Of a stretch of 56,254 nucleotides of DNA, positions 36,323-39,085 are shown one piece after another; the first letter of the stretch is position 1, and every line of letters begins with the position of its first letter. A program made the translations under genes and the position numbers. The stretch lies in assembly GCA_017620915.1 (NCBI GenBank), contig JAFZSK010000006.1:1-56254 (forward strand), given 5' to 3'. Source of the DNA: Clostridia bacterium. Its GTDB lineage: Bacteria; Bacillota; Clostridia; UBA1212; UBA1255. The notes beneath the pieces were generated by a model. It had not been told where the DNA came from. It worked only from the letters and a program-made list of their open reading frames with translations, and searched no databases.

Positions 36323-37024
36323 TTAACGGTACCTGCGGCCCAGTTCGGGCAGGGCGTAGGTGAGGACTTTGATGGAATTGCCCGCGGCCAGTTTGCAGAA
36401 TGTCGGAAAATCGGTGGGAGCACCGCCGTCGGCGCCGTCGGAAATCGACCGGAGAATAACGTAGGGGACCAGATTGATCGCCGCCACCGCCGCGATCGCG
36501 CCGCCCTCCATTTCACAGGCTGACGCGCCGAAATCGTCGCGCAGCTTCTTTTTTTGCTCGCCTTCCGCCACAAAGCAGTCGCCGGATGCCACGATGCCGC
36601 GGTAAGCCTTCAGACCGGCTTTTTTCGCCGCGGAAAGCATTATATCCACCGCGGGTCTGTCGGCGGGGATGTTGACCGTTTCGAGCGCCTGGATCCAGCC
36701 GCGCGGATCGCCGAACGCGGTGGTGTCAAAATCGTGCTGCAGCGCCGAGTCGGAGACCAGGATGTCGCCGATGCGGAGCGCGTTGTCAACGCCCCCGGCC
36801 ACGCCCGTGTTTACGATAAGCCTCGGCTTGAATTTCACGCACATGACGGTGGCGCACATCGCCGCGAACACTTTGCCCACGCCGCACACTGCGGTCACGA
36901 CGTCTACGCCGCCGATCTTGCCCGCACTGAATGTGATGCCGCAGATCTTGCGGTCGCGCCGCTCGGCCATCAGGGCCAGCAGCCCTTTTATTTCAATATC
37001 CAGCGCACCGATGATCCCGATCAT
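36323..37024 (-). CDS. mtnN: 5'-methylthioadenosine/S-adenosylhomocysteine nucleosidase
   Basis: This 233-residue enzyme (Pfs) would split adenine from S-adenosylhomocysteine and methylthioadenosine. Features are IGIIGALDIEI at the N-terminus, VNTGVAGG, GDCFVAE and CEMEGGAIAAVA, whose Glu binds the ribose, and ILRSISDGAD with the catalytic Asp. Its ATG overlaps the luxS stop as ATGA, so the two are translationally coupled. The product S-ribosylhomocysteine is the substrate of LuxS. Confidence 0.95.
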   Translation of the reverse strand: MIGIIGALDIEIKGLLALMAERRDRKICGITFSAGKIGGVDVVTAVCGVGKVFAAMCATVMCVKFKPRLIVNTGVAGGVDNALRIGDILVSDSALQHDFDTTAFGDPRGWIQALETVNIPADRPAVDIMLSAAKKAGLKAYRGIVASGDCFVAEGEQKKKLRDDFGASACEMEGGAIAAVAAINLVPYVILRSISDGADGGAPTDFPTFCKLAAGNSIKVLTYALPELGRRYR

Positions 37025-37554
37025 GATGCCGCACCTCCCGTCGATATGTCTGTGTTATCCGCCGTCGGTCCCGGATACCGGAACGTTACATTTGTATTTT
37101 CCAGCACGTTCAAAAAGTATGCCGCCCCGGCTTTGGCTTTGTCAATGTCGAGATTCCGGTAATTGCCGCACTCGATCTCGCTCTTGCCGAACACGTCGCC
37201 CTGATGGTGAACGATCATTTCCAGCGTAGCTTTGGTGGCGGTCAATACTTCCTCCGGATCCGGCGGCTCGCCGTCAATGCCCCGCACCAGCAGATAATAC
37301 CCGGTCTGGCAGCCCATCGGCCCGAAATAGATCACCCGCGGCCCGATGGCGGAGTTGCGAATGTAAGTGGCGAACATGTGCTCCATACTGTGTATTTCTG
37401 CGTTGGAGATCAGGTCGCCCGAGTTGGGCACCCGCGCGCGCAGGTCAAACGTGGTAATGTCGCCGTCGCTCCGCGAAATGTACATTCCGGGGACAATATA
37501 CCGGTGATCCACCGTAAAGCTGGCGATCTTCTCTATTTTTTCTGTCTTTTCCAT
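37021..37554 (-). CDS. luxS: S-ribosylhomocysteine lyase LuxS, from internal start
   Basis: LuxS cleaves S-ribosylhomocysteine to homocysteine and the precursor of autoinducer-2. From an internal ATG at 37554 the product has 177 residues. Zinc ligands appear in HSMEH (His55, His59) and in SEIECGNYRN (Cys129); the catalytic Cys82 lies in FGPMGCQTGYY. These match the B. subtilis spacing closely. AAAGGTG lies five bases before this ATG, so separate LuxS can be made. The same frame is also open upstream into tadA without a stop. It precedes mtnN with an ATGA overlap. Confidence 0.92.
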   Translation of the reverse strand: MEKTEKIEKIASFTVDHRYIVPGMYISRSDGDITTFDLRARVPNSGDLISNAEIHSMEHMFATYIRNSAIGPRVIYFGPMGCQTGYYLLVRGIDGEPPDPEEVLTATKATLEMIVHHQGDVFGKSEIECGNYRNLDIDKAKAGAAYFLNVLENTNVTFRYPGPTADNTDISTGGAAS

Positions 37555-38031
37555 TTCAGCACCTTTTTCGGTCTTGTCTCTGAGTTCTTTAAAGAAGCGG
37601 CTGAGCAGCGCCGACGCTTCGGTCCCGCAGATCAGCGGATACACTTCGGTACCTCTCCCGGTACGGTTGTCCGTTCCCCGCGCAAACAGATTGAAGCGGG
37701 AGCCGGCGGCGCCGGCCTCGGGATCGTACGCACCGAAATAGAGCCGGCGGAAGCGGGCGGAGGATATTGCCCCCGCGCACATGGGGCAGGGCTCGAGGGT
37801 CACGTATATGTCGCAGTCATCCAGGCGCCAGTCGCCGGCGGCGCGGGCCGCGGCTTCGATGGCCCGCAGTTCCGCGTGACCGGTAGGGGAGTGCTCGGCT
37901 TCACGGACGTTGTGCGCGCGGGCAATGACGGCGCCGTCTTTGACTACCACCGCGCCGACCGGCACGTCGCAAGGCAGACTCAGCGCCGCCTCCCGGAGCG
38001 CTTCTTCCATAAACCGCCTCACTATTGACAT
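37021..38031 (-). CDS. tadA: TadA-LuxS single reading frame (tRNA adenosine deaminase fused to LuxS)
   Basis: From ATG 38031 the frame runs 336 codons without a stop. Residues 1-150 form a complete TadA: VPVGAVVV, GHAELRAIEAA (His52, Glu54) and EPCPMCAGAI (Cys82, Cys85), the zinc-deaminase site that converts A34 to inosine in tRNA-Arg. The usual C-terminal helix ALLSRFFKELRD follows, then KTEKGAE, then LuxS from Met160. A bifunctional protein is therefore possible beside LuxS made from the internal start. Another TadA start, at 38010, has GAGGCGG ahead of it. The frame stays open further upstream, but there it is antisense to mazG and not credible. Confidence 0.85.
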   Translation of the reverse strand: MSIVRRFMEEALREAALSLPCDVPVGAVVVKDGAVIARAHNVREAEHSPTGHAELRAIEAAARAAGDWRLDDCDIYVTLEPCPMCAGAISSARFRRLYFGAYDPEAGAAGSRFNLFARGTDNRTGRGTEVYPLICGTEASALLSRFFKELRDKTEKGAEMEKTEKIEKIASFTVDHRYIVPGMYISRSDGDITTFDLRARVPNSGDLISNAEIHSMEHMFATYIRNSAIGPRVIYFGPMGCQTGYYLLVRGIDGEPPDPEEVLTATKATLEMIVHHQGDVFGKSEIECGNYRNLDIDKAKAGAAYFLNVLENTNVTFRYPGPTADNTDISTGGAAS

Positions 38032-38163: not shown

Positions 38164-38823
38164 ATGATCAGTTTTGACCGGACGCCGGAAGACGGCAAAT
38201 ATAAATTTTACGACTTGTACGAAGTAATAAGGCTCCTGAGATCTCCGGGGGGCTGCCCCTGGGACCGGGTCCAGACGCACCGCACGCTCATCACGCCGAT
38301 GGTGGAGGAAGCGTACGAACTCGTGGACGCCATTGAAAAAGAGCGCGACGACAAGCTGGTGGAAGAACTGGGCGACGTCCTGCTGCAGGTGATCTTTCAT
38401 ACGATCATCGGCGCGGAAGAGGGCAAATTCACGTTTGACGACGTGACCGACCGCTGCACGCGCAAGATGCTGTTTCGCCATTCGCACGTTTTCGGCGAGG
38501 ACACCGCGGCCAACGCGGGCGAAGCGCTTGAGAACTGGGAAAAGCGCAAGACGAATGAGAAGGGGTTCGACTCGCTGGAGCAGAAGCTCCGGGACATTCC
38601 GCGCAATTATCCCGCGCTGTACAAGGCGTACAAGGCGGCGTCCAAGATCCGCAAAGACGCGGAGGCCCGGGGCAGTTCCGCAGATACTGCGGACGTGCCG
38701 GACAACGAGGAAGAACTGGGAAAGCAGCTGTACGAGATCGTCCGCGCGGCCGAGGCAAAAGGGCTCAATCCGGAGACGGCGCTGCGAAGGTATGTTGACC
38801 GCGAAATAATAAAAGCTGATTAA
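38164..38823 (+). CDS. mazG: MazG family nucleoside triphosphate pyrophosphohydrolase
   Basis: This 219-residue all-helical enzyme would hydrolyse nucleoside triphosphates to monophosphates, helping to clean the nucleotide pool. LRSPGGCPWDRVQTH opens the MazG domain, and EEAYELVDAIEKE with EELGDVLLQVIFH supplies the metal-binding acidic residues. A second, shorter MazG-like half ends the protein. GAGGAG nine bases ahead supports ATG 38164 over upstream in-frame starts. Linkage to rqcP directly downstream copies the yabN-yabO order of Bacillus. Confidence 0.92.
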   Translation: MISFDRTPEDGKYKFYDLYEVIRLLRSPGGCPWDRVQTHRTLITPMVEEAYELVDAIEKERDDKLVEELGDVLLQVIFHTIIGAEEGKFTFDDVTDRCTRKMLFRHSHVFGEDTAANAGEALENWEKRKTNEKGFDSLEQKLRDIPRNYPALYKAYKAASKIRKDAEARGSSADTADVPDNEEELGKQLYEIVRAAEAKGLNPETALRRYVDREIIKAD

Positions 38824-38839
38824 AACAGAGAGGTAATCC

Positions 38840-39085
38840 ATGAGGATCGACAAGTTTTTAAAAGTATCACGCGTGATCAAACGGCGCACCGTGGCCAACG
38901 AAGCCTGCGACGCCGGCCGGGTCACGATCAACGGCCGCCCTGCCAAAGCGAGCGCCGATGTCAAAGAGGGCGACATCGTAGAGATCGGTTTCGGCACCGG
39001 CAAAACGCGTTTCCAGGTGCTGAAAGTTACGGAAACTGTCAGAAAAGAAGATGCGGCGGGCATGTACCGGCTGCTGGAAGAATAA
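38840..39085 (+). CDS. rqcP: S4-domain protein RqcP (YabO)
   Basis: The 81-residue protein is a single S4 RNA-binding domain: MRIDKFLKVSRVIKRRTVAN, then AGRVTINGRPAKAS and VKEGDIVEI. RqcP works with RqcH in the bacterial ribosome quality-control pathway, where it helps add alanine tails to stalled nascent chains on 50S subunits. AGAGGT precedes the ATG. It starts 16 bases after mazG and 20 bases before the foldase gene. An Hsp15-like role is the alternative, but size and context favour RqcP. Confidence 0.9.
   Translation: MRIDKFLKVSRVIKRRTVANEACDAGRVTINGRPAKASADVKEGDIVEIGFGTGKTRFQVLKVTETVRKEDAAGMYRLLEE

Follow-up and report, generated by a model that had tools for sequence, protein, structure and literature searches.

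An in-frame TadA-LuxS gene fusion in a genus of uncultured Clostridia

The tRNA adenosine deaminase TadA and the S-ribosylhomocysteine lyase LuxS are well-known, unrelated enzymes, ordinarily made as two distinct proteins, each of them a homodimer, and tRNA-Arg(ACG) is the known substrate of bacterial TadA. No natural TadA-LuxS protein, or any natural fusion of a LuxS domain, is described in the literature searched; chains in the PDB match one half or the other of such a protein but none match both, and NCBIfam contains no two-domain TadA + LuxS model. As far as could be searched (literature, PDB and NCBIfam), TadA-LuxS is a new domain combination; annotation may exist among the proteins of UniProt or RefSeq. 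The gene described here lies in a window of 56,254 nucleotides, the whole of contig C64 (JAFZSK010000006.1) of a clostridial genome (G000; 121 contigs, 97% complete). Its product resembles TadA of known structure (PDB 7cph, 2b3j and others) in having the whole domain with the HAE and PCPMC zinc ligands, in being the sole copy found and in the presence of tRNA-Arg(ACG) in the genome, and differs in bearing a C-terminal LuxS. Likewise, it shares with LuxS (PDB 1inn, 1ie0 and others) the whole domain, the HxxEH, GPMGC and CGNY motifs and a position adjoining mtnN, whereas an N-terminal TadA replaces the start at LuxS's own Met.

An earlier note on this DNA, made from the sequence alone, had claimed that TadA and LuxS share one uninterrupted reading frame to which mtnN is directly coupled, and both claims were borne out. 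The minus strand from 38031 to 37021 translates to 336 residues with no internal stop, and this one protein gave Pfam matches above cut-off to both deaminase models (PF14437, 6.9e-32; PF00383, 4.6e-27; residues 4-151) and to LuxS (PF02664, 1e-41; 142.7 bits against a cut-off of 27; residues 168-312). The deaminase core (GHAELRA, EPCPMCAG) is present, as are the metal site and conserved cysteines of LuxS (HSMEH, GPMGCQTG, IECGNY) when aligned with other LuxS proteins. The ATG at 38031 occupies the same position as the TadA start in relatives; a longer mechanical open reading frame extending upstream to 39141 was rejected, its extra part being antisense to mazG. Against the NCBIfam equivalog model for TadA (NF008113), the protein scored 102.9 bits over model positions 11-157 of 165, below a cut-off of 150 that is the naming threshold of one model and no biological definition; the domain was still assigned to TadA because of its motifs, the best PDB matches, which are TadA, its status as the sole copy and the presence of the substrate tRNA. 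With the nearest NCBIfam LuxS model the score was 149 bits, just under the cut-off of 158. The luxS stop codon (TGA, 37021-37023) overlaps the mtnN start (ATG, 37024) as ATGA, and the mazG/tadA/(luxS)/mtnN block is conserved among relatives (Table 1).

Table 1. Features of the tadA-luxS locus, in window coordinates.
Feature	Position	Strand	Remarks
mtnN (SAH/MTA nucleosidase)	36323..37024	-	strong Shine-Dalgarno (-11.6 kcal/mol); named by sequence resemblance and operon context
tadA-luxS fused gene	37021..38031	-	336 aa, single open frame; orthologous fusions L025/L035 (G003) and L020 (G006)
LuxS domain	37096..37530	-	Pfam match; HSMEH, GPMGC, CGNY intact
Linker and LuxS N-terminal lead, about residues 156-169	37525..37566	-	lowest model confidence at 160-163
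Internal in-frame ATG	37552..37554	-	weak Shine-Dalgarno (-3.9 kcal/mol)
TadA domain, residues 1-155	37567..38031	-	zinc-binding HAE and PCPMC intact; only TadA found in genome
mazG-like gene	38164..38823	+	divergent from tadA; neighbour conserved across family; named by sequence resemblance
S4-domain-like small protein	38840..39085	+	after mazG, in conserved block; named by sequence resemblance

Six other species of the genus were compared, and the same in-frame fusion was found in two of them, G003 (335 aa) and G006 (334 aa), each represented by a separate and incomplete MAG (70% and 82%, respectively). The linker is 14 codons longer in G003 than in the source genome and both differ from that of G006, yet the frame is kept; a stop codon or frameshift between the domains was looked for in these two relatives and none was found. 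Over 20 junction codons compared between the source genome and G003, dN/dS was 0.2, and the TadA and LuxS halves are 62-82% identical between the fused species. In G002, the frame on the contig carrying tadA meets no stop across the linker up to the contig end, and a separate contig begins at the SFTVDH of LuxS and runs into mtnN; this is probably a fourth fused species whose gene is split by a contig break. A search of named genome contigs recovered the fusion only in RUG12823, which appears to be G003 (the match figures are identical), while the G002 tadA contig is apparently Tb.RUG.494. Since two separate MAGs from other species, G003 and G006, share the fused frame, it is attributable neither to chance nor to an indel error in the contig; on this sequence evidence TadA-LuxS is a real fusion, passed on by inheritance within a small group of uncultured Clostridia from gut and rumen.

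Outside the genus, no TadA-LuxS was found in about 790 genomes. The order (31 genomes) yielded no other LuxS frame long enough to hold a TadA, except those read as LuxS-MtnN; no TadA-LuxS occurred among the matches listed for the class sample (156 genomes with LuxS among 391), nor among the long LuxS frames of the phylum sample, in which 72 of 398 genomes have LuxS. G693 holds the sole long LuxS frame from outside the family, and this too is a LuxS-MtnN, of 410 aa. One candidate, L038, seemed to extend into TadA and was rejected when tblastn, run with each domain on its own, found no TadA there. In the LuxS-MtnN fusions (L023 in G008, L017 in G011 and L132 in G693), open frames of 378-410 aa combine consecutive methyl-cycle steps; their MtnN halves are very unlike one another, and these fusions probably arose on two separate occasions. 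They are like the TadA-LuxS gene in that LuxS is joined in frame with an operon neighbour, and show that such fusions of LuxS occur elsewhere, but differ in that the partner is a nucleosidase of the same pathway and lies on the C-terminal side.

Other LuxS-like sequences were met in the same searches. The source genome encodes a degenerate LuxS-like protein (L002, G000:C108:407-787) that scores above the PF02664 cut-off (38.8 bits) with HSIQH replacing HxxEH and PCGS replacing MGC. Similar matches occur in six of the seven species of the genus (also L030, L031, L032, L033 and L034), including two without a true LuxS, and where read (L002, L030, L031) their N-termini carry repeated RGRPRKNP-like, AT-hook-like motifs; the protein is perhaps a DNA-binding pseudoenzyme. 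Five genomes of the phylum sample (G420, G177, G285, G389 and G411) gave LuxS matches in which a single TAG or TAA was counted inside; these could be match edges or pseudogenes.

The origin of the fusion may be traced in the sister genus (G009 and G012), where the same genes are found in the same order, on the same strand and with the same neighbours, but tadA and luxS are separate, in different frames, and overlap at ATGA. Because of this shared order and overlap, the fusion is taken to have arisen when the frame changed within an operon of overlapping genes: in an ancestral tadA-luxS-mtnN run with overlapping stop and start codons, an indel where tadA and luxS overlap would have shifted the frame, removed the tadA stop and brought luxS into frame. 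Two overlapping neighbour genes thereby probably entered one frame. In three other species of the source genus (G001, G004 and G005), tadA has its own stop, mtnN follows directly, and luxS is absent from the site. A concatenated tree grouped the fused G006 with G001 and G004 (support 100), with G002 adjoining (77) and G005 weakly placed (55). In the simplest history that these gene arrangements suggest, the genes fused once, close to the base of the genus, and luxS was later lost from a fused gene at least once; should G005 be the first branch, luxS may have gone from it before the fusion took place. Elsewhere in its genome, G004 carries a LuxS of another lineage (40% identity; L009 / L094), which suggests replacement.

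The earlier note had also pointed to the internal ATG at 37554, preceded by AAAGGTG, as a start from which LuxS alone might be made. The codon and the upstream bases are there; the production of LuxS from them fared less well. In its favour, translation of tadA would deliver ribosomes to this ATG, and the ATG with its partial Shine-Dalgarno is kept in G003. However, the calculated pairing with the anti-Shine-Dalgarno (-3.9 kcal/mol; -3.4 for the ATG of G003) is near background, the median for 64 internal ATGs in neighbouring genes being -2.0 kcal/mol with at least 12 of them pairing better, and is far below that of the unfused luxS starts (-8.5 and -10.3) and of mtnN (-11.6 kcal/mol). Neither G006 nor that part of the G002 linker which was sequenced has this ATG. 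G006 has instead a GTG six codons before SFTVDH, its purine stretch (-6.6 kcal/mol) lying 12 bases upstream, a long spacing; no ATG, GTG or TTG was found in the last 25 codons of the G002 tadA contig. Across the fused species, internal starts are weak or poorly positioned, and although some LuxS alone could come from the internal ATG (G000, G003) or the weak GTG (G006), production of an 18-kDa LuxS beside the fusion seems doubtful in the source species.

The reading favoured here, to which a probability of roughly 0.83 is given, is that of a real, inherited fusion created by a frame-changing indel and made mainly as one 36-kDa protein in which TadA and LuxS act independently. No second TadA was found in the source genome, and a single TadA match was obtained per genome in the fused species (G003 and G006 being incomplete MAGs, in which a further copy of either gene may have been missed). 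No other LuxS match in the source genome keeps HxxEH intact. Since these are the sole TadA and sole intact LuxS detected, and tRNA-Arg(ACG) is present (L128), both halves should work; TadA being expected to be essential, its only match must do so either in fused form or as something made from the fusion. The N-terminal TadA would deaminate A34 of tRNA-Arg(ACG), while MtnN, from the next, overlapping gene, would supply the S-ribosylhomocysteine that the C-terminal LuxS would cleave to homocysteine and DPD, the AI-2 precursor. An AlphaFold model (22 sequences) placed most of both domains above pLDDT 90 and linker residues 160-163 below 50, with low confidence also at residues 119-123 and the C-terminus; at a pTM of 0.52, the model does not fix how the domains lie relative to each other. 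A flexible linker would lie between independent active sites, and the shared chain would mainly set the ratio of the two. That the gene is expressed as one protein, that both halves are active and that they act independently is what we infer from the coding sequence, in which proteolytic splitting of the fusion would leave no trace.

A stronger proposal, in which the fusion links wobble editing with the methyl cycle, found no support. Under it, the fusion would have been selected for coupling tRNA editing to methyl-cycle flux or AI-2 through shared regulation, localization or allostery, and its persistence over several speciations speaks for this. Yet G001, G004 and G005 lost luxS at the site with TadA intact and the sister genus keeps the genes separate, the two enzymes have no shared substrate, a change of frame between overlapping operon genes suffices as an origin, and LuxS-MtnN fusions arose elsewhere; selection for coupling is considered improbable. 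An obligate bifunctional enzyme, in which the state of LuxS or its binding of S-ribosylhomocysteine alters TadA, or the reverse, is judged slightly less probable again; if true, wobble decoding of CGN arginine codons would follow methyl-cycle flux or AI-2 production. That an assembly or sequencing indel joined two separate genes is scarcely credible: the window comes from a draft genome, but the separate MAGs of other species share the frame with differing linkers.

This is a real, genus-level fusion of two well-known enzymes that most likely act independently, and as mechanism it is modest. It nevertheless joins in one chain a tRNA-editing enzyme expected to be essential and an enzyme of quorum signalling and the methyl cycle. 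The genus and its sister genus show overlap, fusion and loss of luxS together, and so offer a compact case of operon-gene fusion that may come apart again. Surveys of LuxS that rely on its stand-alone length would misjudge these genomes.
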